Part shown: piece after piece, positions 37,772 through 53,036 of the stretch
How positions within the stretch are numbered: the first letter of the stretch is position 1
Layout of the letters: every line of letters starts with the position of its first letter
DNA from: Desulfosporosinus youngiae DSM 17734
GTDB taxonomy: Bacteria; Bacillota; Desulfitobacteriia; Desulfitobacteriales; Desulfitobacteriaceae
Direction: 5' to 3'
Assembly: GCF_000244895.1 (NCBI RefSeq)
Contig: NZ_CM001441.1
Location: forward strand, 3,740,226 to 3,804,225
DNA length: 64,000 nt
The notes under the pieces: generated by a model
Database searches by the model: none
Told to the model about the DNA's origin: nothing
Seen by the model: the letters and a program-made list of their open reading frames with translations, nothing else
Translations under genes and position numbers: made by a program

Positions 37772-37809
37772 ACAAAGCCTGCCCCTTCGTTAATGAGGGC
37801 AGGCTTTGT
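37772..37809. terminator. 13-bp perfect hairpin, likely bidirectional terminator
   Basis: ACAAAGCCTGCCC and its complement flank a 12-base loop. It lies just after the end of the surface-protein operon on the minus strand. T-runs are weak on both sides. Confidence 0.6.
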
Positions 37810-37829
37810 TCGGCTTCCGGCAACCAGGC

Positions 37830-38142
37830 TATCATAGCGCTTAGGTATAGTTGCTCATAATGACCGCCATCTGCTCACATTGGCATTTGCCATCCGTCCG
37901 AGAGCGGTAACGAACATTCCTCTCGTAATGGCGGTGTTCGGGCTGAAGGTAGTGTTGGAAGTGCCGCTGAACAATCCACGGCTTACCACAAACTCAATAT
38001 CTTCCTTTGCCCAATGGCCTGCAATATCCGTAAATGCGGCGCTGACCTGATTGGCTCCCAGGGCCGGAACCGGGATGGGAGCGAAATAGGTGAGGGCGAT
38101 GAGGAGGATCAGGATAAGTCCGTCGGATGCTCTTCTGTTCAT
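37830..38142 (-). pseudogene. SLH-domain gene with internal deletion
   Basis: Start ATG 38142 has TGAGG before it; ATG 38154 overlaps the stop of the giant gene (TAATG). The frame gives a signal peptide (LILILLIALTYFAPIPVPAL) and one SLH domain (AFTDIAGHWAKEDIEFVVSR, NTAITRGMFVTALGRMA). It then ends NVSRWRSL at 37855. In another frame the same bases read MAVIMSNY, a piece of a later SLH repeat, so a deletion removed the middle and shifted frame. It may still make a 95-residue secreted single-SLH protein. Confidence 0.6.
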
Positions 38143-38153
38143 GCTATGCCTCA

Positions 38154-41100
38154 TTATAAATTGGTTTTTAATGCAGGATATTGCTCTGAAACCCCGGCAC
38201 CCAGCAGGGCTCTCATTCTGTCCACCATACTCTCGGGAACAACAGCTTCCCCGCCGAAAACATGGAAAGCCTCTACTCTTTCCTTTGCCTCCGACAGCCG
38301 GCTTTCCTGCTCTGCAGTCAGCCCTGTTCCGCTATTGGCTCCGATCAGCACCAGCCAGCCGTTTCTTTGAGCCGCCACCGCAGCTCCGGCCAGGGCGTCG
38401 GCAAATCCTTTTCCTGTGGCGGCATATACTTCTGTGGCCTCCGGCTGCAGCTCTTTCAGCACTATGGCATTGGTGTCATACCGGGTCTCTCCCCCATATC
38501 GCTTGGGAGCAGGGACTTTGCCTTCCAATGCTGCCGGTAAAACAGCCGTCCCTCCGATCAGGATCGTCCGCGTGATGCCCAGCTCCGCCAAGGCTTTGGC
38601 CGTTCCTGTCGGCAATGAGTCTTTGCCGCTGTCCGCGTAGAGAATAGGGATGCCGTTATAGCCTGCCCATGCCGAGATGCTCAGGACATCGGCAAAGGTT
38701 TTTTCATACATATCCCCATTGACGATGACTGCCTGGCCGCTTGCTCCTCCGACCCGCTTGGCAATCTCATAGGCTGTATCATAATGGGTCTCTCCATAAA
38801 TCCGTTCCACCGTCAATCCGTCGGCTTTAAGCACTGCCTCCACGCTGTCCCCCACCGCTCCCGGACCGCCGATGATGATCACTTTTTTGGCCCTCAGTCT
38901 TTCGATAGTGTTCAAGACACCGGAGGGCAGCTGATCTGGTTCGGTCAGGAGCAGAGGGGCATTGCAGAGCTTGGCCAGCGGAACAGCCGGTAAAGCGTCG
39001 GCGGAGATATCTCCCCTGGCCAGAATAACCAGGTCAGTGCCGCTTCCAAAGTAAGCTTCGGCGATCGCTGCGGCTGTATCATAGCGTGTTTCTCCGGACA
39101 ATCTCGTTTCCTGTGGATTAACGTGGGGCTCGGGCCGGGGGATGATGTCATCCTTGTAGCCCACACCGTAGACGGAAAAATGATTGGTGGAGAAGATGAG
39201 GCTCCGGCGCACCGTATCATAGTAAGCACCTCTGAGATAGGTTACTTCTCCCCGTTCATTGACATACACCGCCCGGATGTTCTCCGCCTTCTCATCCGCT
39301 TGCAGCGTATAGGGAATTTCCACCGTGACACTGCCGCCGCCGAAATCGCTCACCCTTTGGCCGCCATTTTGATAGAGGGCCGCCAGGTCGTAGGCCGGCC
39401 GGCTGCCGATGGCATTCTGAGCGGCTTCGCCATGTTCGGAGGCATCAGTTCGGGTCGCGGTGATCTGAACGTCCGCCTTGGCCTGCCGGTTGATTTCGGT
39501 TACGGCGGATAAATCCATTGCCAGCTTGACATCAGGCCGTTCCACCACAATCAGGGTGCTGACAATTTTTCTGCTGATGATAGTCTCCTGTACGCTTTTG
39601 GTGAGGTTTACGCTGACAGCCGAAGCTGTTTTGCCGCCGGTGTCCACACGAAGTACCACGGTGACGCCATTTTGCTCGTTACCGTTTTTCCTGGCCTCAG
39701 CCAGTGCTTTGTCAAAGGCGTCGGTCACAGTTTTGTCAGTGATATTCACTGTGACATTGCCGTTGCTGTCCACTGTGCCGGGAACCTTGATTTCCCCCTG
39801 CGTGGGTGAATCCGGCCTGTCCGCTGCGGGTGGGATAACGATGACATGGCTGCTGTCGTCCGAAGAACTTCCGCCTCCGCCGGAGCCACCGCCATCACCG
39901 CCGGAGCTGTTTTGACGATAGTTTGGGGTAACGGTTACCGCTTTTGCAGGCATGGTAAAGGTTGTTGTCTTTGCGGTTGCATCAGCAAAGGTTACATCCG
40001 TGCCGCTCCAGCCTGTGAACGTATAGCCGCTTCTGTCATTTGCTGCAATGGTAACGGTCGCACCCTCGGCATAGCTTCCACTGCCTGTGCCGTTTGTTAC
40101 CGTGACAGTGAATAGCCGCTCTGCCACAGTTAAGATGCCTTTTGTATAGGTAATGTTATAGCTTGCAGCGTTTGCCACTACTCCGTCTGAGATGGTAATG
40201 TCAAAGGTGCCGACAGCATTTCCATTTGCGGCGGTAGATATCGTAGGTGCAGTTGTCACAGCATCACTGTTCACCAAACCTGTGGCTGTATAAGTAAAGG
40301 CCGGTAATCCATCGCCTTTCGTCATACTCTTGTCATCTGCTTTCAGCGTAAGCGCTTTGGAGGCAACGGTCACTGTATAGCTTGCCGCAGCCTGTGCATG
40401 GGTACCCGTTTCTGCAGCGGTGGCGGTGATTGTGGCGTTTCCGTCCCCTACAGCCATGATGATCACCGCGCCGGTGTTGGGGTCGACCATTGCCACGGAA
40501 GTATCATCACTGGCATAGGTGATTGTGCCGTTTACGGTTGTTTGTGACAGCGGATTTGTAAACAGGGCATCACCATAAGTCTTGGTTATGACGGCTGTGG
40601 CATAGGAAATTACCTGCGGCGTCTTTGCCGTGGAGGTAACCGTTACAATAATAGTGCAATCGCTGTAGTTGGTGGCGCCTGTTACCGGAATCGTCATAGT
40701 GCCGGTTTGTCCTGCTGTGCTGGGGGGTGCGGTATAAGTCAATGTGGTGCCGGCAATGCTCATAGCGGTCATCGTTATGGCGCCGCCTGTCGTTGGCGTG
40801 CCGTAGCTTGCGCCTGCCGGCAGAGTAGGAAGGATTACCGTCGCCCCTGTTTGCCCGCTTACCAAAACGATTGCCGACACAGTCGTTGGGCCTGTATAGG
40901 CAACTTTATTGATGGTGTAGCTGCCCAGGGGTAGATCTGTAACTGCGTTATATTCAGCGCTTCCGGCAATATTCACCGTGACGGCATAAGTGCCCGCATT
41001 GATGGGTGGTGCGGCGGTGATGCCGTTATATATGACGGTGATTGCACCCAAAGTCTTGCCCGAGTCTGCCGTTACGGATACCGGCTTTTCGGTGCCGTCA

Positions 41101-44100
41101 TAGTCCACGGCGGCCAAACTGTAAATCAAATCCGCTACAGTCGGTGTTGTCTTGGTAAAGGAGGCAATGTTTACCGTAGCATCCAAGCTTGCCAGTGCTG
41201 TGCCGGCGGCCTTGAGGCGCACAAGGTATTCGCCGGGAGCAAGGCCCATTGCCGTGCTGCCGCTGATGGTGGTGTAACTTGCAGCACCGGATTTTTTATA
41301 CTCCATCAGGTTGCTCACGCCGGTGATGGTGCCGTTGTTCAGGGCCGAAGTTTCGTCCGTTTTACCGATTGACGGCGCTGACGGCTGGGTAATATCAATG
41401 GTCTGGATGGCACCAGCATGATGGGTGGTGATTTCTTTTACCCGCACCTGAATGTCCTTTTCTGCCGTAATTCTGCCGAGACTGGCAGTCAAATCCATAG
41501 TTTCGGTGCAGTCTGTCCAACTGCTGCCGCCATCCAAGCTGTATTCCATCGAAGCGGTTGCACCCATAAGTTTGTTGGCGTTTGCGTCGTCAAAGGAGAA
41601 GCTGACGCTGGGTGCACCAGGGCCGTCGGCCTTTTCGATCCTCCATGAGATATCTTTTGCTGCGGTAGTAGTATCGCTCCACGCATAGCCGGATTTTGGC
41701 GTTGCCGTGGCGGTATAGTCGCCTACGTCCGTTGCCTCATAATCTCCGCTCAGGGTATAGCCCGTGCCGCCGTTCACGCCGGTTTGCGCGCTGCCGGTCC
41801 ATTTAAGGCCGGTATTTGCCGTGGGTACGGCGATCTTCGTAACGCCCGCCGAAACGGTCACGCTGGCGTATGCACCTGCCTCATGAGTAGCGGTGGCCTT
41901 CACACGCACATAGTAGGTTCCCGCGGAAAGACCGATGATTTCAGTGCCGAGGCAATCCTGAACACCGGCAAAGCTGCTATCATCCGCATACTCCATAGCC
42001 GTGGTTGCTCCGGTTATCTTGCCGTCCGTGCCGCCCGCACTGCTTGGCGCAACGCCCGAAAGCTCTGTAGGCGCAGCGGGGCCGTCGGCCTTGGTAACGG
42101 TGATGGTTAGGGAGGTGATAATGCTTGTGCCGTTGGCCGTAAGGGTGATCGTAGTATCGCTCATATTAAGATCACCCTGTGGGCTGAAATTGTAGTCTAT
42201 AAAGGCCGGATTTACCGTCCCGTCGTCGTAGGTGGCCTTGACGACCATGCCTGTGGCATCGAAACTTTCCTTATATTTGTAACCCGTCTTGGCAGGTAGT
42301 GTGGTGACGGCAATGGATGCCAACTCTTTCGCTGCTGTGGCCGGGAAGGTAACCGCTGCCGATAAGGTATTCCCGCTGCCTGCGGCATGGGTAACAGAGG
42401 CGGCGGTAAATGTAAAACTGTTTTCCGCTAGGCCGCTGAAGGTATAGCCCGGTTTCGCCGTCAACGATACATTGGCTGTGTAGGCTGTTCCACCGAGGAA
42501 TGTCACGGGAGAACCGGACCAAGCTACCGTACCTGTGTACTGCGCTGTCTCTATGCCTGTGGTAATAGGCGTCGCATTCTTGAGCGGAGCCGTCAGCTTA
42601 CCGCTCAAATCAAGGGCATCGACCTTGCTCACCGGTCCAAAGGCTAAGTATTTGTAGGTGCCGATGGCGTCGGGGCTGTAGACGGGAACAGGGTCCGTTC
42701 CGTCGAAATTCTCACTGGCGCTGACGCCGGCGTTTTCCAGGGTAAGGGCATAGCCGTCAGCCAGAACTTTATCACCACCCTTGAATGTAGCGCTGCCGGC
42801 GGCCGGGATATTTATTTTAACCGTGGCGAGATTCGCTCCAAAGGTATTACCGATGACCGACTTGTGCGTGGACTCCAGTGTCCCCCCCTTCACAAGTATC
42901 GTGTTACTTGACAAGACATCAATCACATAGCCTGTAGTACCTGTATGCGTCAGGGTTCCGCCGGTGATTTCCAGAATCGGCTCAGATGATGCGCTGCCAT
43001 ACAGCCAAATACCCCGATATACTGCGGTAATGGCTGCTGCTTCCGATATGATGATTTTGCCGCTGCTGCCGTAACCTCGGGCAATTGCCGTACCGGCGTT
43101 GTTTGTGGATTCCACCGTTCCGCCGGAAATCATCACATTGCCTGAGCCTGCGCTACTACCTGAGACTGCGCTACTAATCGTCAGCCCGGGACCAGTCGAT
43201 TTGACGATTCCGCCGGAAATAGTTACATCCCCCGATCCTAGATTCTCGATTGCTCCCATAGATGTTTCTATTGTACCGCTTAAAAGGGTCACCGAACCGT
43301 TATTCGTAATCTTAATCGTTAAAGCGCGGCCGTCTGACGATGTGTTCGCAATTTTCCCGCCGCTGCTACTGTCCCGAATCGTCAGGGTACCGCCGCCCTC
43401 ATGCTGAATCGTTGTCAGAACAGAAGAATTGCTGCTGATTGTCTTGCCCTTCAGGTCAAGGGTGAAGCTGCTTACCTTGGAGCTGGAGATAGTGACCGGT
43501 TCCGTCAGGCTGATATTACCCAGCAGTTCGATGGTTTCTCCAACTCCCACCGCATTCATCGCCGCCTGCAGGGCGGAGTAGCCTGTGCCGCCGATTTGGG
43601 CGACATCTGCCGGAGGCTCAAACTGGAGGTATTTGTAGAGGTGGATGCTCACCGCAGCGTACTCGTTCAGCGGCGAGCCGCTGTAATTCAAGCTGGCTCT
43701 TGCCTGCATACCCGCACCCAACTCCGGGGCTTTGTTCATCGCCACATCGCCGCCCTTGATGATGACCGGGCCGCTTGGGATGACGATTTTACCGCTGGCG
43801 TTGTTATAAATCGCCTTGCCGGATGAGGTATTCTCTATCGTGCCGCCTGTAATCTCAAGGACTGTATCAGAGGCATCTCCTCCAAACAGATAAATCGTGC
43901 TACCGTAGCTGCTATGGGTAGGTGCGCCTGTGACTACAGCGTTGCCGCTGACCGTGATCTTTCCGGTGCTGGAATTATAAATCGCAAGGCCTGTGCCGGT
44001 GTTTTTCACCGTACCTCCGGAAACGCTCACACTGCCGGTGCTTTGATTCTCTATCGCTACCCCGGGAAAAGCGGCGCTGGATTCCACTGTGCCGCCGGTC

Positions 44101-44624
44101 ACGCTTACGCTGCCGGTTGATTTGTTAGTTATTGACCCATACTTAGATTGCACTGTGCCGCCGTTCACAACAACGCTGCCGACACCCTCATTGAATATTG
44201 CCAGTCCAGTGGTAGCCGTATTTGCCACTGTACCGCCGGTAACAACAACGCTGCCGACCTTTAGCTCAATCGTACCTAAATCGTAGGCGCAGGTGATTTT
44301 GCCGCCACCGCCGCCGGCGGTATCGGTGATGGTCAGCGTACCGCTTCCATTGTGTACGATGGCAGAGTTGCCGGTACTGCTGACCAATGTCTTGCCATTC
44401 AGGTCAAGGGTAAAGCTTTTAGTATTGCCGCTGGCGATAGTAACTGTAGCTGTGAGGGCAATGCCATTTCCCAGAATGATAGTGCCGCCCTCCGGCACAT
44501 TCGTAATGGCGGTATTTAGGTCCGCTTCATTGCTCACGCCAGATCCTTCCGCCAGTGCGGTCCCCGGAAGCATGGTCACCACCATGCATAACACCAGAAA
44601 CATACTGAGTATTTTTTTCATCAT
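38154..44624 (-). CDS. giant CWB2-anchored surface protein
   Basis: 2156 residues. Signal peptide (MMKKILSMFLVLCMVVTMLP). Residues about 35-640 are Gly/Thr/Ser-rich turns (SVSVTGGTVES and like) as in beta-helix adhesins, arranged in two similar blocks each starting with AIxNVxEGxTI-like or YSALQAAMNAVGVGETIEL. About 650-1420 hold Ig/MBG-like modules, about 1420-1560 an MBG and an InlB-type repeat (GSYAEGATVTIAANDRSGYT). A Gly/Ser linker and a conserved region follow, and three CWB2 cell-wall-binding repeats (from about 1820: RLSGETRYDTAAAIAEAYF). CWB2 domains bind anionic wall polymers. It overlaps the zinc-ribbon gene by ATGA, so it is part of the LemA operon. Confidence 0.9.
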   Translation of the reverse strand: MMKKILSMFLVLCMVVTMLPGTALAEGSGVSNEADLNTAITNVPEGGTIILGNGIALTATVTIASGNTKSFTLDLNGKTLVSSTGNSAIVHNGSGTLTITDTAGGGGGKITCAYDLGTIELKVGSVVVTGGTVANTATTGLAIFNEGVGSVVVNGGTVQSKYGSITNKSTGSVSVTGGTVESSAAFPGVAIENQSTGSVSVSGGTVKNTGTGLAIYNSSTGKITVSGNAVVTGAPTHSSYGSTIYLFGGDASDTVLEITGGTIENTSSGKAIYNNASGKIVIPSGPVIIKGGDVAMNKAPELGAGMQARASLNYSGSPLNEYAAVSIHLYKYLQFEPPADVAQIGGTGYSALQAAMNAVGVGETIELLGNISLTEPVTISSSKVSSFTLDLKGKTISSNSSVLTTIQHEGGGTLTIRDSSSGGKIANTSSDGRALTIKITNNGSVTLLSGTIETSMGAIENLGSGDVTISGGIVKSTGPGLTISSAVSGSSAGSGNVMISGGTVESTNNAGTAIARGYGSSGKIIISEAAAITAVYRGIWLYGSASSEPILEITGGTLTHTGTTGYVIDVLSSNTILVKGGTLESTHKSVIGNTFGANLATVKINIPAAGSATFKGGDKVLADGYALTLENAGVSASENFDGTDPVPVYSPDAIGTYKYLAFGPVSKVDALDLSGKLTAPLKNATPITTGIETAQYTGTVAWSGSPVTFLGGTAYTANVSLTAKPGYTFSGLAENSFTFTAASVTHAAGSGNTLSAAVTFPATAAKELASIAVTTLPAKTGYKYKESFDATGMVVKATYDDGTVNPAFIDYNFSPQGDLNMSDTTITLTANGTSIITSLTITVTKADGPAAPTELSGVAPSSAGGTDGKITGATTAMEYADDSSFAGVQDCLGTEIIGLSAGTYYVRVKATATHEAGAYASVTVSAGVTKIAVPTANTGLKWTGSAQTGVNGGTGYTLSGDYEATDVGDYTATATPKSGYAWSDTTTAAKDISWRIEKADGPGAPSVSFSFDDANANKLMGATASMEYSLDGGSSWTDCTETMDLTASLGRITAEKDIQVRVKEITTHHAGAIQTIDITQPSAPSIGKTDETSALNNGTITGVSNLMEYKKSGAASYTTISGSTAMGLAPGEYLVRLKAAGTALASLDATVNIASFTKTTPTVADLIYSLAAVDYDGTEKPVSVTADSGKTLGAITVIYNGITAAPPINAGTYAVTVNIAGSAEYNAVTDLPLGSYTINKVAYTGPTTVSAIVLVSGQTGATVILPTLPAGASYGTPTTGGAITMTAMSIAGTTLTYTAPPSTAGQTGTMTIPVTGATNYSDCTIIVTVTSTAKTPQVISYATAVITKTYGDALFTNPLSQTTVNGTITYASDDTSVAMVDPNTGAVIIMAVGDGNATITATAAETGTHAQAAASYTVTVASKALTLKADDKSMTKGDGLPAFTYTATGLVNSDAVTTAPTISTAANGNAVGTFDITISDGVVANAASYNITYTKGILTVAERLFTVTVTNGTGSGSYAEGATVTIAANDRSGYTFTGWSGTDVTFADATAKTTTFTMPAKAVTVTPNYRQNSSGGDGGGSGGGGSSSDDSSHVIVIPPAADRPDSPTQGEIKVPGTVDSNGNVTVNITDKTVTDAFDKALAEARKNGNEQNGVTVVLRVDTGGKTASAVSVNLTKSVQETIISRKIVSTLIVVERPDVKLAMDLSAVTEINRQAKADVQITATRTDASEHGEAAQNAIGSRPAYDLAALYQNGGQRVSDFGGGSVTVEIPYTLQADEKAENIRAVYVNERGEVTYLRGAYYDTVRRSLIFSTNHFSVYGVGYKDDIIPRPEPHVNPQETRLSGETRYDTAAAIAEAYFGSGTDLVILARGDISADALPAVPLAKLCNAPLLLTEPDQLPSGVLNTIERLRAKKVIIIGGPGAVGDSVEAVLKADGLTVERIYGETHYDTAYEIAKRVGGASGQAVIVNGDMYEKTFADVLSISAWAGYNGIPILYADSGKDSLPTGTAKALAELGITRTILIGGTAVLPAALEGKVPAPKRYGGETRYDTNAIVLKELQPEATEVYAATGKGFADALAGAAVAAQRNGWLVLIGANSGTGLTAEQESRLSEAKERVEAFHVFGGEAVVPESMVDRMRALLGAGVSEQYPALKTNL

Positions 44625-44797
44625 GTCTGTCCTCCCTTGATTCGTAAAGCTGCTTTTCCTTGTTCCAAAAGCTTCTCCAGCCTCCCGGCTTCCTCCGCGG
44701 TGGCCGGGCGGACGTTATTTTTTTCACAGGAAGGGCAATCCTTTACCGCTCCCACCCGGTAGAATAAAAAGCCGCAGTCCTCGCAGGCGTAAGTCAT
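44621..44797 (-). CDS. small zinc-ribbon protein
   Basis: 58 residues from ATG 44797 (GGGAGGAATAAC upstream; the longer frame has no site). Two Cys pairs, YACEDCGFLF and KDCPSCEKNN, make a rubredoxin/zinc-ribbon knuckle; then a short helix rich in Lys/Glu. Stop overlaps the giant gene start by ATGA, indicating coupled translation. Role unknown. Confidence 0.75.
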   Translation of the reverse strand: MTYACEDCGFLFYRVGAVKDCPSCEKNNVRPATAEEAGRLEKLLEQGKAALRIKGGQT

Positions 44798-44835
44798 GTT
44801 ATTCCTCCCTTGACCCATAGATTCGGTGATTTTCT

Positions 44836-45744
44836 TCAAATCCCCAGGAGCTGTTTTTTCTTGGCTTCAAACTCTTGCTGGGAAATGATGCCCTCCTCCA
44901 TAAGGGTCTTGTATTTCTTGATTTCTTCGATGGGGTCGGTAGGGGGAGCCATAGTGGTATATGCCGCTTGCATTCCAACTGCGCCAAGGCCGACAGACTG
45001 CTCGGCTGTGCCGGGAAAGGCCACTGTTCTAAGTGCGGCCACCAGCTTTTCCAGTTCTTCTATGCTTTGCTGGTAGGAGCGGAGGTAGTTGTTCACATCC
45101 GGGAGGGTGTTATTAAACCGGGGCCCGTCCATATCACATTTGAGCACCGTCCAGTTGGGGTGGTCGAAATGCAGCTCCACGTTAAATGCCTGAAAGGGTT
45201 CAGGAATGTCAAAATACTGTACGGTTGCGGAGTTGTTTACCTTGCCGTCATCCAGCCTGTCCAGGGTTCGTGCCATCCGCTTGCTCGCTGCATACTGTGC
45301 GATTTGCGGCGCCATCGCCATGGCCCGCTCGGTGACGGTGCTGGCATAACGGCGTAGGCCTGCCGCCGAACCCTCAAACAGGGGGAGGCTGTCCTCCTTA
45401 ATGGTAAAGGATTTCAATTGTTGGCCTTCAAATACGGTTTTATCGGGGTTTTTGCTCATGCAGAACAGCTTGTTCCGGTGATCAAAGATGATTTTGGTAT
45501 CCCAAAGGCCGAAGTCAATCCGCTCAGAAATCACGAACTGTTCTTTCAGTCTTTGGTTTTGCTCGTAAAAGGCCAGATACTCCCGAAGGCCCTGCATGGT
45601 CAGATGGCTTTCCTGATCGGCACCCATATCAATTTTGTTATAGCAGTTGTTGCAAATATATTCGTCCTCGATTTTCGAGGGTAGGATCAGGGGAATCTTG
45701 CCGCCGCAGATGGGGCAAGGGGGTTTTTTAGAAAATAGTCCCAT
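44836..45744 (-). CDS. DUF4428/SHOCT-domain protein
   Basis: 302 residues. N-terminal zinc finger (CPICGGKIPL, ICNNCYNKI; DUF4428 type), a middle domain of about 180 residues like a PH-type fold (FDHRNKLFCMSKNPDKTVFE), and a C-terminal SHOCT motif (IEEIKKYKTLMEEGIISQQE, FEAKKKQLLG). SHOCT helices often mediate oligomerisation. No signal peptide, so cytoplasmic. It lies 24 bases after the DUF2207 gene and 38 before the zinc ribbon. Confidence 0.85.
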   Translation of the reverse strand: MGLFSKKPPCPICGGKIPLILPSKIEDEYICNNCYNKIDMGADQESHLTMQGLREYLAFYEQNQRLKEQFVISERIDFGLWDTKIIFDHRNKLFCMSKNPDKTVFEGQQLKSFTIKEDSLPLFEGSAAGLRRYASTVTERAMAMAPQIAQYAASKRMARTLDRLDDGKVNNSATVQYFDIPEPFQAFNVELHFDHPNWTVLKCDMDGPRFNNTLPDVNNYLRSYQQSIEELEKLVAALRTVAFPGTAEQSVGLGAVGMQAAYTTMAPPTDPIEEIKKYKTLMEEGIISQQEFEAKKKQLLGI

Positions 45745-45768
45745 TATCAGTTCCTCCCGTTATTCAGA

Positions 45769-47463
45769 TTATCTTGTCCCGCCCCCCGAACCGCCGCCGG
45801 TGGAGCCGCCGCCCCCGCCAAGGGAAGCCCATCCGCCCCCACCACCGCTGCGCTTTTCCTGTTCGCGCTGTTCTTCGGCTTCCTTCATATTTTTATAAAG
45901 CACATAGTGATAGGAAGAGGCGGTCACCATGCTTTGGCTGTAATCGGTCAGCTGGTTGGAAATTTGCGGGTAGAGCTCTTTCATTTGCTCAGCCACCTGA
46001 TCGGCGATGCCAAACAGCATGGCATAGGTCAGCAGTTCCTGCCAAATCGGCATTTCTTTGACACCCCGCTGGTTAACCAGTGAGAAATCCGTCAGATATC
46101 GTTTCAGCCCCATCAGCTCGCCCAGCTCCTGTTCACCGGCGGGCGTCAGGTCGGTGAGTCTTCCCGGGGTATCCCACCGTTTCAGGCAGTGCTTTTGGTT
46201 CAAATAAGCTCTGCCCGCGCTGTCGCATTTCTGGATGTAGGCACGCAGCAGCTTGTCGTTTTGGCCGGCAAAGCGTTCCAGCTCCTTGGCCTGCAAGGTG
46301 GCGTCCGAACCGGCTGCGCTTTCCAATACCGTATAGAGGTACTCGTCATAGGCGTTCATTTTGTCATGTTGGCTGCCCATCAGCCGCAGGCTCACCGTTT
46401 CTTTGGTTTTGCCCATCAGGCCGACCTGCTGGGTTTCCACCGGGGACAGGCAGCCCAGCTGAATCAGCCGCAGCATTCCTGTGGCGAGAATCGCACCGTC
46501 CTCACAGACATCAAACAGTCGCCCTAAGGCATAGGTAGCGCTCAGATTGCCGCCGTTGGGAATGTCCCTGAAGTACCCGAACCCCTCTGTAAACCGTTGT
46601 CGTTTTTTCTCCGCATGTTTCTTTTTTAATTTGTGGAGCCAGATAATGAGTCCAATGGGAAGTCCGATGAACAGCAGTAGGATGACAATTGCTTCAAATG
46701 TGGATATTTCCTCGCCCGTGTATTCGGCGTCATCGTAATCACTGCCTGCAAAGGCAGTTTCTTTTACTTCTTCAAAGCTGCCCGGTTCTTGCCGGGTGGG
46801 GGACAGGATGTCCTTATTCAGAGCAAACAGTACCGTCAGATGGTTTTCGGGAGTAAGGGGGCTTTCCGTGTAAGCAAGAATGGCGCCATCTGAAAATTCC
46901 ACCTGTCCGTCATAGCCAAAGCCCCAGGCAGCGGCGTTTTGCTCAGTGATGGGCATGCCGTCCGCCAGCCGGATCTCCACCTTCACATCGGTAGGGGTGG
47001 TATTCATCCCAGGGTTGACAAAACGAAAGTTGACGCCGTCCCTGTCGCTGTAACCGCCCACCGCATTGTCCAGCTTATATTCAATGGCATAGCGGTTTTG
47101 CCCGTAATTACTGATGCCAAAGCAGATTTCATAGCCGCCGTCCGTAGCATGGATGCCGCATTTTCTCGCCTTTTCGGCAAAGCTCCAGTCAATATTCCAA
47201 TCCGGCAGGGTTTCATAGCTCCCGTTTTGGTCGGAGACCGTAAGCCGGCTGATAGTCAGGTAAGGGGGTGCGTTCATGGGAATGTAGCTTTCGGTTCCTT
47301 CGTTAAAATCCCCCGTCCAGACCTGTGCCACGTACATGGAGCCGTCCTCGTAAAGGACGGCCTGAATATCCATGGTTTCCACCCGATTCGCAGCAAAAGC
47401 GGGGAGAGGAAGGGCGAGCAGCAGGACAAAGCATAGCATCAGACCATGCACCTTTTTTCGCAT
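45769..47463 (-). CDS. DUF2207-domain membrane protein
   Basis: About 564 residues from ATG 47463 (GAGG seven bases upstream); ATG 47475 overlaps the lemA stop. Signal peptide (LMLCFVLLLALPLPAFA), an outer DUF2207 domain (about 30-230, VETMDIQAVLYEDGSMYVAQ), one membrane helix (AIVILLLFIGLPIGLIIWLH), a cytoplasmic helical part, and a Gly-rich end (GGGGGWASLGGGGGSTGGG). DUF2207 and LemA genes are often neighbours in bacteria; the pair is thought to act in the envelope. Exact function unknown. Confidence 0.88.
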   Translation of the reverse strand: MRKKVHGLMLCFVLLLALPLPAFAANRVETMDIQAVLYEDGSMYVAQVWTGDFNEGTESYIPMNAPPYLTISRLTVSDQNGSYETLPDWNIDWSFAEKARKCGIHATDGGYEICFGISNYGQNRYAIEYKLDNAVGGYSDRDGVNFRFVNPGMNTTPTDVKVEIRLADGMPITEQNAAAWGFGYDGQVEFSDGAILAYTESPLTPENHLTVLFALNKDILSPTRQEPGSFEEVKETAFAGSDYDDAEYTGEEISTFEAIVILLLFIGLPIGLIIWLHKLKKKHAEKKRQRFTEGFGYFRDIPNGGNLSATYALGRLFDVCEDGAILATGMLRLIQLGCLSPVETQQVGLMGKTKETVSLRLMGSQHDKMNAYDEYLYTVLESAAGSDATLQAKELERFAGQNDKLLRAYIQKCDSAGRAYLNQKHCLKRWDTPGRLTDLTPAGEQELGELMGLKRYLTDFSLVNQRGVKEMPIWQELLTYAMLFGIADQVAEQMKELYPQISNQLTDYSQSMVTASSYHYVLYKNMKEAEEQREQEKRSGGGGGWASLGGGGGSTGGGSGGGTR

Positions 47464-47471
47464 AGGGCACC

Positions 47472-48026
47472 TCATTTCATACTGGGCATAATGGCCTTGC
47501 CGGCCTGCTCCTCCAGGTAGTCCCTTTGCCGAAAGCCCAGCATCCCGGAAACCATGGAGACCGGGAACATGCGGATTTCACGGTTCAGCTTGGTGACGCT
47601 GTCGTTGTAGATCAGACGGCTGGTGCGCACCATGTTTTCAAAGGTCTGCACCGCGTCCATGGTTTTGATATAGGTCTGATTGGCCTTGAGTTCGGGGTAT
47701 TGCTCCGTTACCATGGCAATCCTGCCCAGGGCTTCGGAGATGATCCCTTCCTGGCGCAGCACGTCATCCGGTGTTGATTTTGCCGTGATGACACTTCTCC
47801 TGGATTTGATGGTTTCAATCAGGGTTTCGCTTTCATGCTTGGCATAGCCCTTTGTCAAATCCAAAAGGGCTGTCAGGGCATCGAAACGGCTGGACAGCTG
47901 CACCCCGATCTGGCTCATGGCATTGCTGATATTCTCATCCAGCACCACCAGTCTGCGCTGGGTAGAGATGATCCACAGGACAACCACCGCGATAATGACG
48001 GCGATGGTGATGAAAGTTGGCAGCAT
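47472..48026 (-). CDS. lemA: LemA-family protein
   Basis: 184 residues from ATG 48026 (AAAGGAGAC). An N-terminal membrane helix (FITIAVIIAVVVLWII), then the LemA helical bundle with MSQIGVQLSSRFDALTALLD, VTEQYPELKANQTYIKTMD and FPVSMVSGMLGFRQRDYLEE. LemA proteins are membrane-anchored with most of the chain outside or inside depending on species; function is unclear. It heads the series lemA, DUF2207, SHOCT, zinc ribbon, giant surface protein, all close or overlapping. Confidence 0.92.
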   Translation of the reverse strand: MLPTFITIAVIIAVVVLWIISTQRRLVVLDENISNAMSQIGVQLSSRFDALTALLDLTKGYAKHESETLIETIKSRRSVITAKSTPDDVLRQEGIISEALGRIAMVTEQYPELKANQTYIKTMDAVQTFENMVRTSRLIYNDSVTKLNREIRMFPVSMVSGMLGFRQRDYLEEQAGKAIMPSMK

Positions 48027-48190
48027 AATAAAGTCTCCTTTTTTAGTTTTGAATGGGCGGGCGGACCACAGTTTTGCCCGTCCACCCATTTTATTGCCCG
48101 TATGCGTGATTACTCCAAGGTGATACTCGGAAGTATTTCGGCCAGAGTTTGAATAATCAGGTATATATGTCAGGGAGACATTATCCCCGC

Positions 48191-50788
48191 TTATCTGCCC
48201 ACAATATTTTTCGCTATTACCCCTTCCCCTCCGAAAATATAGACCTGCTCCAATTTTTTTGCATCCAAATAGGCCTTTACGTCCTCATCTACATCGTCTT
48301 TTTTTATCAGCAGCAAGGGCAGACCTTTCTTTGCCGCTAACGCTGCCCCCGTTAAAGCATCGGGGTAATTCAGGCCCGTTGCCAGCGTGATCTTTGTGTA
48401 GGGAACCTTTTCAAAATGCTTTACAATGGCTAAGGCAGTATCATATCTGTCCTCACCAGCCAAACGGGTGACACCAATACCCATATTTTTCAGTTCATCT
48501 TCTACCGCCAGCGAGATGACACCGGTTCCCCCGGCAATAACAACCTGCTTAATGCCCCAGGCCAGAAGAGCTTCCCTGGTGTCGTCTCTTAGTTTGTCCT
48601 TTCCTGAAAAGAGAATAGGCATAGTGTTTTTAGCCGAAAACGGTGTTATTGCCAAAGCATCCGGAAAATCATTCTGAGTTGCCAGGGCTACGGTGTCAAA
48701 AGCCTTGATTTTTTTTACTTCTTCCCCTATTTTAGCGGCTGTATTAAACTGGTCGCTTCCTGAAATCCTGAGCACCTTATATTTATCCTTTAGCTCATTT
48801 TCGATTTCGAGGGATACTTCGTCCTTGTTTCCGATAATATAGACTGTTTTTGCCCTTAGTCTTTCTATTTCCCCGGCTGTCACGGAGGACAAAGATTTTG
48901 TATCCGTCAGCAATACCGGCGCATCTTTCAGGTAAGCCAGGCTGGATCCGACTAAAGCCCCGGAAAAACTGTTGCTATTAGCTAAAAACACATTTTCTGA
49001 TAATGCCCAGCCATTTTTGCTGATCTCTGCGGCTGTCTCAAACCTGTCCGAGCGGCTCAAACGTATACTCTCCTGCGCTGTCAGTAGGGAACCCCCGGGT
49101 GTGGCGGGTGTAGGTGTGACCGGAGCGAGTGTCTCAGACACTTTGTAGCCTTCGCCCCCGAAATAGACGTAGCCGTTTGCATAGCCGCAAGCACTGTTTA
49201 AAAGGGCGAAGTTGTTCTTTTGAACAGTGTCAACCACAATCTTACCGTTGCGGTCAAAAACAGACCAATAGCCTGGTATATACATACTACCTCCAATGTT
49301 CACAGGCGCATCGGTGGGCAGTTGGTGCAAGGCCAGCGTATAGCCGCCCCCTAAAGGCATGGCTTCCACATAGCCGTCCAGATTTCGGATTAGCTTGCCT
49401 GAATAGTCATACAACTCCGTGAATGACCACTCTTTTCCACCGCCTTTTGTGGGTACACCTTTCGCGTTCACTTCCGTGGTGTAGTTGTTCACGATCACGC
49501 CATCTTTCCATTGGAGTCCGAAATTTCTTGTAGGATACCATCTATCAGGGTTGGCCGGAAGGATAACCTTGCCTGTTTTATCCATTATGCCTCCCGGAGC
49601 ATATTTGACAAATCCGTCAGCTGACAAGCCTCCCTTTCCGAGGTACTCGAAGAAGCACACCAAGCCGTCTTTGTAGCTTAAGGCACTTCCGTCATAGAGG
49701 TTCTCGCCGCCGTACTGATACGGGATGACCAGTTTCCCTGTTGTGTCGATATAGCCAATCTTGCTATAAGAAAAGCCATATTGTGAGCCTTGGTACTGGA
49801 GCACCGTCGCCCGACCGTCCTGAAAGGAATAGGCTTCATCAAATTGCAGTGGTATGACCTCTTTTCCTGTTTTGTCAATAAAGCCGTATTTGAGTTCATA
49901 TTTTAGTTTTTTGCCGCTTTTCATCACGATTACTGTTTTATTATTTTCTGTTTCGCTGCTATATACGCCGTCCCCATTCATAATGGCGTTGACAACATCA
50001 TTTCCGTCGATTGCGACCCGCATCAAACCGCTATAAGCGATATGTCCGCTGGCGGCAGCGTCATATTTGAACGGTGTGATGAGTTTGCCTGTGGTGTCGA
50101 TATAGGCGGCCGCACCTTTAGCCTTATCGTAAATCCGTGCGATACCTTGAGAAAACTTTTCTGCGTCATCAAACTGAGCCTTAATCACGACCTTGCCGCT
50201 CTGGTCTTTGTAGCCCATCAACCCGTTTTCTTTATAAGTTGTCCATCTCTCACCGGTAGGATCTGCGGATATGTTGGTTGGAATAAATCGAAATTCGGCA
50301 TGATTGGGGGCGTCTAACGCCCCATGTGTCCATATAATAATGGCAGTTCCGTCAGCATTTTTCTCACCGGATGCATTAATGACCATTTTTGTAGCTTCGG
50401 GTGGACGCAAACTGAAAATGTCCGACTTTTCTTTGTTAAAGCTAGTGGCTTCCCAATGGATAAGCCAAGTGTAAGGGCTATTGACCGCTTTTACTCGCGC
50501 ACCGTCTTTTCTCGGATCCTCAAGCCCCAAATATCTGCCATCTTTCATTTTCAAGGTATATTGGCTGCCGCCCTTGCTTTCCACATAAAAAGCTTCATTT
50601 TCAGAAAGCTTGCGCAGCTCTGCCGCTCCGTCGGCAGTCAAATTGAGGTAATTGTTCATAGAGCGAAGATGGTACCAACCGTCAAAAATAGTATTACTTG
50701 TTGTCCACTCCGTCGCAAACGCCGTTGTTGGCAGCAAGGTAAGCATCATGCACAGGGTGAGCAGGATGCCTATAAATCGTTTCTTCAT
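48191..50788 (-). CDS. WG-repeat/CWB2 cell-surface protein
   Basis: 865 residues. Signal peptide (FIGILLTLCMMLTLLPTTAF), a small lectin-like N-terminal region (YHLRSMNNYLNLTADGAAEL), several WG/KWG repeats (about 185-520: GKVVIKAQFDDAEKFSQG, GKEVIPLQFDEAYSFQDG, GKLVIPYQYGG) and three CWB2 repeats at the C-terminus (from about 575, RLSRSDRFETAAEISKNG). It is secreted and bound to the wall. It has its own promoter region divergent from the LytTR regulator, which suggests control by it. Spacing to lemA is about 160 bases. Confidence 0.9.
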   Translation of the reverse strand: MKKRFIGILLTLCMMLTLLPTTAFATEWTTSNTIFDGWYHLRSMNNYLNLTADGAAELRKLSENEAFYVESKGGSQYTLKMKDGRYLGLEDPRKDGARVKAVNSPYTWLIHWEATSFNKEKSDIFSLRPPEATKMVINASGEKNADGTAIIIWTHGALDAPNHAEFRFIPTNISADPTGERWTTYKENGLMGYKDQSGKVVIKAQFDDAEKFSQGIARIYDKAKGAAAYIDTTGKLITPFKYDAAASGHIAYSGLMRVAIDGNDVVNAIMNGDGVYSSETENNKTVIVMKSGKKLKYELKYGFIDKTGKEVIPLQFDEAYSFQDGRATVLQYQGSQYGFSYSKIGYIDTTGKLVIPYQYGGENLYDGSALSYKDGLVCFFEYLGKGGLSADGFVKYAPGGIMDKTGKVILPANPDRWYPTRNFGLQWKDGVIVNNYTTEVNAKGVPTKGGGKEWSFTELYDYSGKLIRNLDGYVEAMPLGGGYTLALHQLPTDAPVNIGGSMYIPGYWSVFDRNGKIVVDTVQKNNFALLNSACGYANGYVYFGGEGYKVSETLAPVTPTPATPGGSLLTAQESIRLSRSDRFETAAEISKNGWALSENVFLANSNSFSGALVGSSLAYLKDAPVLLTDTKSLSSVTAGEIERLRAKTVYIIGNKDEVSLEIENELKDKYKVLRISGSDQFNTAAKIGEEVKKIKAFDTVALATQNDFPDALAITPFSAKNTMPILFSGKDKLRDDTREALLAWGIKQVVIAGGTGVISLAVEDELKNMGIGVTRLAGEDRYDTALAIVKHFEKVPYTKITLATGLNYPDALTGAALAAKKGLPLLLIKKDDVDEDVKAYLDAKKLEQVYIFGGEGVIAKNIVGR

Positions 50789-50823: not shown

Positions 50824-50982
50824 TTTATAGTTTCAAGCTATCAGAAATTTCTTCCCAAAACCCTCTGCTGCATGAAACATGATTTTTTTGACATGAACCA
50901 TGGCTTCGGCTCGTCGGTTTTTATGGTAAAATTAGCTTGGAGAACCTTTTTCATTCATCAGTGGCCCGGTCTAACATCAGTG

Positions 50983-51034: not shown

Positions 51035-51760
51035 ATGCTGCAGATTGCGATCTGCGACGATAATATAGATGAACTTTCCAATATGGTGCAGCTGATCAAT
51101 CTCTATCGGTCAGCCAAAAATCTCAGTTGTGAATACGCTGTCTTTCCCAACGGATTTGAGCTGGTTGCAGCCCTGGAAAAAGGAAAACGGTTTGATGTCT
51201 ATTGTCTGGATATTATTATGCCGGGCTTTATGGGCATTGATGTGGCCAAGGAAATCCGCACCTTTGACAAAACCGCGCCGATCTTATTCTTTACCTCCTC
51301 CCCCGAGTTTGCCCTGGCAAGCTATGCGGTGAAAGCCATCAACTATGTACTGAAGCCCATCTCCAAAGAAAAGTTTTTCTTCACCTTTGATGAGATGCTG
51401 GAACAGATAGAAGCGAAAAAAGAGGAGGATGCGGTGATCGTGAAGAGCAGTGAGGGCCTGCAAAAGATACGGATTGCCAACTTGGTTTTTGCCGAGGTCA
51501 TTGGTAGAAATGTGCTCTATCATCTGCGCTCCGGCAAGGTTATCGAATGTACGGAAGCCTTTTCTTCTGCTTGCGCTAATCTTCTCAAATATGGATGTAT
51601 TATCAAGCCCCACCGTTCCTATCTTGTGAATATGCAGTATGTGGATACCATCGAAAATCATCAGATAACCTTACAGACCCTTTCCTCTGTCCCTATTGCC
51701 CAGGGCAAGGCACGGGAGATTAAGCAGCACTATCTGAATTATCAAATGGAGGGAGAATAA
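51035..51760 (+). CDS. LytTR-family response regulator
   Basis: 241 residues. Receiver domain (IAICDDNIDELSNM, phosphoacceptor in VYCLDIIMPGFMGI, YVLKPISKEKF) and a C-terminal LytTR DNA-binding domain (about 140-238, IRIANLVFAEVIGRNVLYHL, HRSYLVNMQYVDTI). Ribosome site GGAGGAAGG. The kinase gene starts four bases after its stop. Being divergent from the WG/CWB2 gene, it likely controls the neighbouring surface proteins. Confidence 0.93.
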   Translation: MLQIAICDDNIDELSNMVQLINLYRSAKNLSCEYAVFPNGFELVAALEKGKRFDVYCLDIIMPGFMGIDVAKEIRTFDKTAPILFFTSSPEFALASYAVKAINYVLKPISKEKFFFTFDEMLEQIEAKKEEDAVIVKSSEGLQKIRIANLVFAEVIGRNVLYHLRSGKVIECTEAFSSACANLLKYGCIIKPHRSYLVNMQYVDTIENHQITLQTLSSVPIAQGKAREIKQHYLNYQMEGE

Positions 51761-51764
51761 GGGG

Positions 51765-53036
51765 ATGATAGAAACTGCCATTGCCTTCTCCCGTTACTTT
51801 GTTGCCTTGATGTTCGGTGCGGCGGTTGCGGTCAGCTTCGCCGGAATAGCGCGTACACGGAAAAATTATCTGGTGCTGGGGTGTTTTACCGTCATTTTAT
51901 TTATGCTGCAACTGGCAAGTCTGCGGCTCTGGGGTATGGAGACAACCATAAAAATATATCCGCTGCTTTCCCACTTACCGGTTGCTGTTTTTATCGCCCT
52001 TTACTTAAAACGCTCGTGGCTTATTTCACTAACCAGTATGTTTGTCTCCTTTCTGTGCTGCCAGCCTCCCCGTTGGATCGGCACGGTTGCCGGCGAAATG
52101 TTTGACAGCGCTTCCATGGACCATGCCGGTTATATAGCCGGTGCCTTGCTGATGTACTATTTCCTGCAAAAATATGCGGTAAAATCAGTCCGGCATCTGA
52201 TGGAGCGTTCTCTGGAATCCTGCCTCCTCTTTGGCGCTATGCCGGCTTTTTACTATCTGTTCGACTATGCCGCCACGGTGTACACCAATTTTATGTACAG
52301 CGGGGCACGGGCTGCTGTACAATTCATGCCCTTTGTAACAGCGGCCTTTTATTTTGTGTTTGTCCTCCTGTACTATGCCGAAATCCAAAAACAGGCAGCT
52401 CTGCAAAGAGAGCGGGACATGCTGGACGCGCAGTTTCGGCTGGCCCAGACAGAATTTGCTTCTCTGCGGCAGATGCAGCAGAATGCCGCAGCCTATCGGC
52501 ACGATATGCGCCATCATTTCTCCCTTTTGCAGGGGCTGGCCGCCGAGGGACGCCTCGAGGAGCTGAGGGAGTATTTGCGGACCGCCCAGTCCGACATGGA
52601 CGCCATCACGCCCACGCACTTTTGCGAAAACGAAACCGTCAATCTGATTTTGTCCGCTTTTGCCGCCAAGGCAAAACAAGGGGGCATCTTGTTGACGATG
52701 GATGCCAGGCTGCCTGACTCCCTTCCCTTCAGCGATACCGAGCTTTGTTCCCTCTTGTCAAACGCTTTGGAAAACGCTATACAAGCCTCCGGACAGATAG
52801 CCGACAGCAGCAAACGCCTTATCCGGCTGCGTGTGTATACCAAGAATACGAAGCTGTGCCTTGACATTCGCAACAGCTATCAGACAGAACCGGTCTTTCA
52901 TCAGGGCCTGCCAGTATCAAAAGAACAGGGGCATGGCTTTGGCACAAAGAGCATGGCTCATATCGTGGAAAAGCATGGTGGTGTATTCCAGTTTTCAGTC
53001 AAGGATGGCTGGTTTATATTTCAGGCTACTGCATAA
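51765..53036 (+). CDS. GHKL-domain sensor histidine kinase (AgrC type)
   Basis: 423 residues. Six or seven membrane helices in the first 210, a linker, the His box YRHDMRHHFSLLQGLA, and a GHKL ATPase domain with LCSLLSNALENAIQAS and HGFGTKSMAHIVEKHGG. AgrC-like kinases often sense peptides, but no peptide precursor or AgrB gene is near. Partner is the LytTR regulator just upstream. Confidence 0.92.
   Translation: MIETAIAFSRYFVALMFGAAVAVSFAGIARTRKNYLVLGCFTVILFMLQLASLRLWGMETTIKIYPLLSHLPVAVFIALYLKRSWLISLTSMFVSFLCCQPPRWIGTVAGEMFDSASMDHAGYIAGALLMYYFLQKYAVKSVRHLMERSLESCLLFGAMPAFYYLFDYAATVYTNFMYSGARAAVQFMPFVTAAFYFVFVLLYYAEIQKQAALQRERDMLDAQFRLAQTEFASLRQMQQNAAAYRHDMRHHFSLLQGLAAEGRLEELREYLRTAQSDMDAITPTHFCENETVNLILSAFAAKAKQGGILLTMDARLPDSLPFSDTELCSLLSNALENAIQASGQIADSSKRLIRLRVYTKNTKLCLDIRNSYQTEPVFHQGLPVSKEQGHGFGTKSMAHIVEKHGGVFQFSVKDGWFIFQATA

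Follow-up and report, generated by a model that had tools for sequence, protein, structure and literature searches.

A LemA-DUF2207-SHOCT core linked to giant wall proteins and a LytTR two-component pair in Desulfosporosinus youngiae

In Desulfosporosinus youngiae DSM 17734, a stretch of 64,000 nt that was analysed at its full length and is here called the window (contig NZ_CM001441.1, positions 3,740,226 to 3,804,225) carries on its minus strand five adjacent genes for a LemA protein, a DUF2207 membrane protein, a DUF4428-SHOCT protein, a small CxxC protein and a giant wall protein. These five genes are the middle of a larger cassette, extending from about 37.8 to 53.0 kb, in which a divergent LytTR two-component pair is followed by an operator, a secreted wall protein (protein A), lemA, the DUF2207 gene, the DUF4428-SHOCT gene, the CxxC gene and the giant. 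With moderate confidence, we regard it as a horizontally exchanged surface-protein cassette under two-component control, in which the LemA-DUF2207-SHOCT core would aid the secretion, folding or wall placement of the giant; the help given by the core is the weakest link of this mechanism. New here are the direct-repeat operator, the two allelic types of kinase sensor and the fossil SLH anchor lying behind the giant, and a search of the open-licence PMC literature found no description of the cassette.

Linkage of the core to giant wall proteins

The synteny of the core was compared in 39 loci, 22 with a SHOCT gene and 17 lemA-DUF2207 loci without it, a giant being defined as a secreted protein of at least 900 aa within three genes downstream. 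A giant follows in 14 of the 20 evaluable SHOCT loci (window, L013, L014, L018, L020, L068, L069, L072, L073, L074, L078, L080, L128 and L144), or 13 of 19 when the window is excluded, and in none of the 17 loci without SHOCT (Fisher 6e-6), and the two-component pair is present in 18 of 19 evaluable SHOCT loci versus 1 of 15 without SHOCT (Fisher 1.5e-7); both p values are optimistic and serve only as guides, since most controls are more distant relatives, the loci share ancestry and the threshold of 900 aa was fixed with the data in view. The sole control with the pair is L071, a same-clade locus that lost SHOCT, and the operator is found in 18 of 22 SHOCT loci versus 1 of 17 without SHOCT. 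Contig ends excluded L021 and L087 when giants were counted, and L018, L019, L128 and the controls L015 and L081 from the two-component count; L086, which is the same contig as L013, was counted once with it, L128, the other copy in the L013 genome, was counted, and L022 (25% identity) was used solely in alignment A3. Anchor domains of the SLH or CWB2 type were seen in 12 of the 14 giant loci, plus L144 in a separate scan. Among the controls, the nearest cases are a 971-aa gene of L090, which looks like that of a cytoplasmic protease, and a 670-aa CWB2 protein encoded further on in L094.

Genes that recur around the SHOCT loci encode a divergent LytTR regulator with a GHKL kinase, and protein A; a small lipoprotein is often present as well, ahead of the core and the giant. 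The placement of the two-component genes varies, as they may be upstream and divergent, upstream on the same strand (L078, L080) or around and downstream of the core (L072, L074, L077). BLAST finds no similarity between the window giant and its counterparts in L018, L020, L078 and L080, though lemA, DUF2207 and SHOCT are conserved in these loci (DUF2207 shares 74% identity with the window protein in L018 and 77% in L020); as judged from these alignments, a constant core keeps changing its giant partners, and its conservation before non-homologous giants argues for functional pairing. The L020 giant consists of two overlapping ORFs of 1053 and 667 aa, a likely frameshift. The sequence-only reading had seen in the five genes a possible dedicated system for the export or assembly of a giant surface fibre, to be judged by synteny: the co-occurrence of core and giant, non-homologous giants included, was recovered in other genomes, while export or assembly of the giant by the core is no more than plausible, given the cores without a giant and the operator-driven giants without a core in cis, which are described below.

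In the window, coordinates and Pfam confirmed the place and order of the five genes and their linkage by overlaps or gaps shorter than 40 bases, as first read from the letters. The lemA product (47472-48026; 184 aa) belongs to the LemA family (PF04011 2e-35, 122 bits against a cut-off of 26.2; PDB relative 2ETD at 3.9e-26) and has one N-terminal membrane segment. The 564-aa DUF2207 protein (45769-47463) matches PF09972 (42.0 against a cut-off of 24.4) and PF20990 (62.6 against 33), and its hydropathy profile indicates a signal peptide, a predicted outer domain, one membrane segment, a predicted inner domain and a Gly-rich tail. The DUF4428-SHOCT protein (44836-45744; 302 aa; PF14471 5e-14, PF09851 9e-7) shows no membrane segment by hydropathy. 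The small CxxC protein (44621-44797; 58 aa), kept beside SHOCT in several relatives, contains two CxxC pairs and has no Pfam match; by inspection it would be a zinc ribbon. The giant (38154-44624; 2156 aa) is a CWB2 wall protein (PF04122 1.9e-44 in three stretches) with an N-terminal hydrophobic segment read as a signal peptide, repeats, among which Pfam recognises one MBG_2 and one InlB-like repeat, a conserved linker of 232 aa and three CWB2 domains.

From lemA to the CxxC gene the intergenic gaps are of 8, 24 and 38 nt, and the CxxC gene and the giant then share a 4-nt ATGA overlap. At the lemA-DUF2207 junction there are two start candidates, the ATGA start of the sequence-only reading at 47475 and an ATG 12 nt on, at 47463, behind GAGGTG; both are conserved in 16 of 16 junctions compared, and the start at 47463 is preferred because GAGGTG then acts as Shine-Dalgarno sequence. 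The TAATG overlap at the end of the giant joins an SLH remnant (37855-38154) and no intact partner gene. The core and the regulator are under purifying selection, with dN/dS of 0.04-0.20 (0.04-0.06 for lemA in two comparisons), and are therefore maintained.

Immediately 5' of the lemA Shine-Dalgarno, on the minus strand, lies a hairpin (48054-48084), and stable hairpins occur at the same place in many relatives; this element, situated between the surface gene and the core, is a possible attenuator. The sequence of the hairpin varies among loci. Counts of sigma-70 promoter and terminator consensus are no higher than in shuffles, no tRNA is present in the window, and PADLOC assigned none of seven proteins to a defence family. 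The GC content between 38 and 48 kb is 0.525-0.565 per 1-kb window and 0.30-0.53 in the rest of the stretch.

Operator, two-component pair and sensor alleles

The unit drawn by the sequence-only reading was correct for its five genes but began too late, as the cassette starts upstream of lemA. It had also overlooked the regulator and the operator, the first of the surface genes, and both the mosaic and the anchor swap. The first surface gene, for protein A (48191-50788, minus strand), encodes a secreted wall protein of 865 aa with WG repeats and, by Pfam, three C-terminal CWB2 domains. On the plus strand, the LytTR response regulator (51035-51760; 241 aa) matches a receiver and a LytTR domain (PF00072 3.9e-14 and PF04397 3.7e-8), both above the curated cut-off, and is followed by a sensor histidine kinase (51765-53036; 423 aa) of the GHKL/HATPase_c_5 type (PF14501 1.2e-16) with a hydrophobic N-terminal half. 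The region between the regulator and the first gene contains TTCATGTCGAAAAAATCATGTTTCATGCAG, in which two TTCATG half-sites stand 21 nt apart; this operator (50868-50897, minus strand) lies 79 nt before protein A. Target sites of LytTR regulators generally consist of two repeats, each 9-11 nt long and 11-13 nt apart, and the E. coli regulator YpdB binds a direct repeat of GGCATTTCAT (PMC4847170). The half-sites of the window and of its relatives, spaced 21 nt from start to start, follow this rule, and the repeats contain TTTCAT, like the YpdB site; the cassette regulator would be expected to bind the predicted operator. Receiver and LytTR domains in the regulator, a GHKL-type kinase and direct repeats with 21-nt periodicity are shared with AgrA/AgrC, YpdB/YpdA and VirR; unlike these systems, the cassette pair, for which binding is predicted, is linked to lemA-DUF2207-SHOCT and giant wall proteins.

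The operator pattern has a single match in the window, without mismatch, and none in 100 shuffles, and a looser pattern matched 51 sites, spread over 16 of the 20 genomes searched, as against one for the reversed control. Of four congeners without the cassette, three have no site (G003, G009, G012) and one has two weak sites (G007). In the fetched loci 55 operator sites were found, 42 with a called start within 250 nt and 30 with the start at 70-95 nt, and in L074 one site stands 107 nt directly before the giant. A TGnTAnnnT stretch often occurs at a fixed distance after the operator sites, and in the window TGATAGCTT (50835-50843, minus strand) may represent an extended -10 element.

In its own genome D. 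youngiae has 83 CWB2 matches, which by count correspond to 27 long genes and two short ORFs, and three operator sites (in the window, at 1317288 and at 1320804), all preceding lipoprotein or CWB2 genes. The last two belong to a second locus (G000:C1:1317288-1331800; L125, L126) and lie between its own, more distant LytTR regulator and kinase: one site lies 179 nt before the gene of a 393-aa lipoprotein, which is followed by a 652-aa CWB2 gene, and the other 132 nt before a CWB2 giant of 3612 aa.

In 16 kinases compared, without the truncated L069 and more divergent kinases, the N-terminal halves form two groups. Sensors of the window group (L017, L020, L021, L073, L087, L135, L145) are 66-87% identical to that of the window and those of the other group (L013, L014, L016, L071, L133, L136, L144) 79-91% identical to that of L068; between groups the sensor halves are only 44-52% identical, whereas the kinase halves are 70-95% identical, with a sharp boundary. 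This combination of polymorphic sensor and conserved kinase, observed in the 16 kinases, is that of Agr/Com-type circuits. The core of the window is nearest to that of L068, yet its kinase belongs to the other sensor group; core and kinase affinities therefore differ, which indicates that modules recombine. No gene for a peptide precursor, its processing or its export was recognised among the cassette proteins scanned or the gene calls, ORFs shorter than 50 aa not having been examined.

Some carriers have additional genes. A 96-aa HTH-like gene is found between the regulator and protein A (L014:6168-6458, L068, L069, L144). The cassette of L018 includes, by Pfam, a clostripain-type (C11) lipoprotein (L018:3001-4995), and similar lipoproteins were noted by inspection in L074 (2846-3829), L078 (8626-10662) and L080 (9328-11298); this lipoprotein may process the giant.

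Mosaic giants and probable horizontal exchange

In the giants of L013, L014, L068 and L069 the conserved linker is directly joined to SLH domains. The window linker, 63-64% identical over 232 aa to those of L013, L068 and L069, is instead followed by a segment of about 1.1 kb (38053-39149, minus strand), which codes for the three CWB2 domains and lies between the linker and the ancestral SLH region: similarity of the linker stops at residue 1825 and SLH similarity begins at 38052, two points that are contiguous in L069. The SLH anchor and its 3' flank persist as a fossil (37774-38052, minus strand) in three pieces, of which the first (180 nt) matches L069 at 88%, the second (35 nt) at 97% and the third (65 nt) at 77%; about 133 and 600 nt have been lost from between them. 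Instead of an in-frame SLH triplet, the window giant has only a broken remnant past its stop codon. Because this fossil remains behind the giant, these alignments show that the CWB2 domains were inserted and that the SLH anchor was replaced by CWB2. Protein A follows the same pattern: over residues 1-560 it shares 69% identity with the L068 protein, and only the window copy has a CWB2 triplet. The CWB2 triplets of the giant and of protein A are 34% identical to each other and therefore do not derive from a recent duplication. Signal peptide, repeats and three SLH or CWB2 modules are features of known surface proteins, such as C. difficile SlpA-type and S-layer proteins; the cassette giants are unlike these in that the outer region is exchanged among relatives and in that, in the window, the anchor type was replaced with an SLH fossil left in place.

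The SHOCT protein was found at 1e-12 in 5 of 398 sampled genomes of the phylum, own genome included, and in none of 28 congeners, from which the DUF2207 clade is also absent; relatives of DUF2207 with 73-84% identity are found in unrelated Clostridia, e.g., Marasmitruncus massiliensis and Sporanaerobium hydrogeniformans. At the DNA level the window core matches L068 with 84.8% identity along 3.6 kb and L013 with 84.7% along 3.5 kb, and the similarity stops at the signal peptide of the giant. Since SHOCT is missing in all 28 congeners while distant Clostridia share the core at about 84% DNA identity, the cassette was probably acquired horizontally. In one IMG/VR contig filed as viral (IMGVR_UViG_3300017589_000168; L144, L147), for which an integrative conjugative element is likelier than a phage, the cassette stands beside a VirB4-like ATPase and a T2SSE-type ATPase; these adjoining conjugation-type ATPases make an integrative conjugative element a possible vehicle. 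Inspection of the gene calls around the window cassette revealed no integrase, an integrase search having been made only for the IMG/VR contig, and the phage collection gave no DUF2207 match. In the plasmid collection SHOCT matched two records, with sizes of 2.6 and 0.86 Mb: one match belongs to a cassette without DUF2207 (L145), and the other is a SHOCT gene with no annotated lemA or giant alongside. Many cassette copies are decayed. In the own genome, a SHOCT gene fragment 67% identical over 49 residues (G000:C1:2556503-2556649; L012, L143) is a remnant of another cassette copy.

Possible role of the core

In the mechanism that we favour, the kinase would read an extracellular cue existing in at least two variants, and the phosphorylated regulator would bind the operator and so induce the core and the giant jointly with protein A. 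LemA would be held by its N-terminal anchor with its helical bundle probably inside, DUF2207 would expose its outer domain and, after one pass, carry an inner domain, and, with LemA and SHOCT facing inward, the three may form a membrane complex. Such a complex would help the Sec-exported giant in secretion, folding or wall placement, and might also serve operator-driven giants encoded elsewhere in the genome. Consistent with such action in trans, though no proof of it, is the case of G063, where the giant-less core L016 coexists with the operator, lipoprotein and 1824-aa SLH giant of L132.

The core proteins are related to known families, by Pfam and by a PDB sequence match, through MamQ and T. 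maritima LemA and, for DUF2207, SMU.243 of S. mutans; unlike these members, they form a cassette operon with SHOCT, a regulator and a giant. The LemA match to the MamQ NCBIfam is below its cut-off. In the portions of the literature consulted, MamQ acts in magnetosome membrane formation (PMC4902198), deletion of the S. mutans DUF2207 gene reduces stress tolerance and biofilm (PMC10457818), a lemA gene of E. faecalis changes threefold in one Fsr quorum-sensing background (PMC3667150), and a test of SHOCT oligomerisation was negative (PMC3581485). In a PDB sequence search the SHOCT profile had no match and the DUF2207 profile only matches with E of 0.16-0.86, taken as chance.

Several observations weigh against the help of the core to the giant. 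In the synteny comparison most controls are lemA-DUF2207 pairs at a greater evolutionary distance; L015 and L071 alone belong to the same clade. The core has no giant in cis in six SHOCT loci (L016, L017, L019, L070, L077, L145), and L087 and L145 have lemA and SHOCT without DUF2207. Conversely, lemA, DUF2207 and SHOCT are absent from a 50-kb stretch of the second own locus, that of the 3612-aa giant, which means that the switch needs no core in cis to drive a giant; L132 has its operator, lipoprotein and giant without the three core genes, and L129 has an operator giant and lemA without DUF2207 and SHOCT. The operator was not found in L018, L072, L078 and L080. The S. mutans DUF2207 mutant was judged, in the part of the study available, to be without effect on envelope biogenesis (PMC10457818), and structure models were unusable (mean pLDDT 53.7 for DUF2207 with 10 sequences and 52.8 for DUF4428-SHOCT with 6 sequences).

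Giants lacking a core in cis also agree with the view of the core as a sensor or feedback module, in which DUF2207 and LemA would monitor how far massive export loads or stresses the envelope and SHOCT would pass the signal to the inside, an alternative that we consider possible but rather unlikely. The stress sensitivity of the S. mutans DUF2207 mutant, in the portion of the report cited above (PMC10457818), agrees with it, as do SHOCT-like domains, which an available section of another study proposes as inner-leaflet anchors in envelope-stress operons (PMC11237479). PSP/Lia operons share with the cassette their membrane proteins and a SHOCT domain, and in some cases they also have LytTR or two-component regulators (PMC11237479); in the cassette, unlike in these operons, the downstream gene is a giant wall protein, and the Pfam scans run on window proteins, and on the cassette proteins in particular, recognised no PspA and no Toastrack/LiaF. 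Most loci, moreover, have one giant after the core and no stress regulon.

That linkage reflects only co-regulation through a shared operator and joint transfer on mobile elements, with no action of the core on the giant, seems unlikely to us. The conjugation genes beside the cassette in the IMG/VR contig, the satellite loci that have the operator and a surface gene only (L131, L132, L137) and the many decayed copies are in line with such a history; purifying selection on the core and its retention directly before non-homologous giants, with two-component genes in varying positions, speak against it. Quite improbable, finally, is a polymorphic social or competition system, in which an Agr/Com-like pheromone circuit controls a hypervariable kin-recognition adhesin and the core may process or present the ligand: the two allelic sensor halves with their sharp boundary and conserved kinase halves, the hypervariable giant and the clostripain-type lipoprotein beside it in L018 (and, by inspection, in L074, L078 and L080) would suit it, but no peptide-processing gene was recognised among the scanned cassette proteins, within the limit on short ORFs given above, and by inspection the type of protein A does not track the sensor group, the window and L068 sharing the type and differing in sensor.

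The reading of a cassette whose core aids its giant also admits a bolder form, which we put forward only tentatively: LemA-DUF2207-SHOCT would be a dedicated machine for the display of giant wall proteins in general, a single core working both in cis and in trans on a changing range of operator-linked giants. A polymorphic LytTR switch of a quorum-like kind would control it, and in each new host the cassette would adapt by fitting its proteins with the wall anchor used there.

LemA and DUF2207 proteins are, to our knowledge, widespread, and we know of no biochemical function for them apart from that of MamQ in magnetosomes. In the cassette they are accompanied by a defined regulator, an operator of 30 bp and, downstream, one specific client, so that their role can be tested directly. 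The surroundings of the five genes make them more interesting than they had first appeared, and the cassette is a clear case of modular evolution of a surface locus, with a core that is conserved, outer regions that are exchanged, sensors in allelic forms and an anchor conversion whose fossil is still in place.

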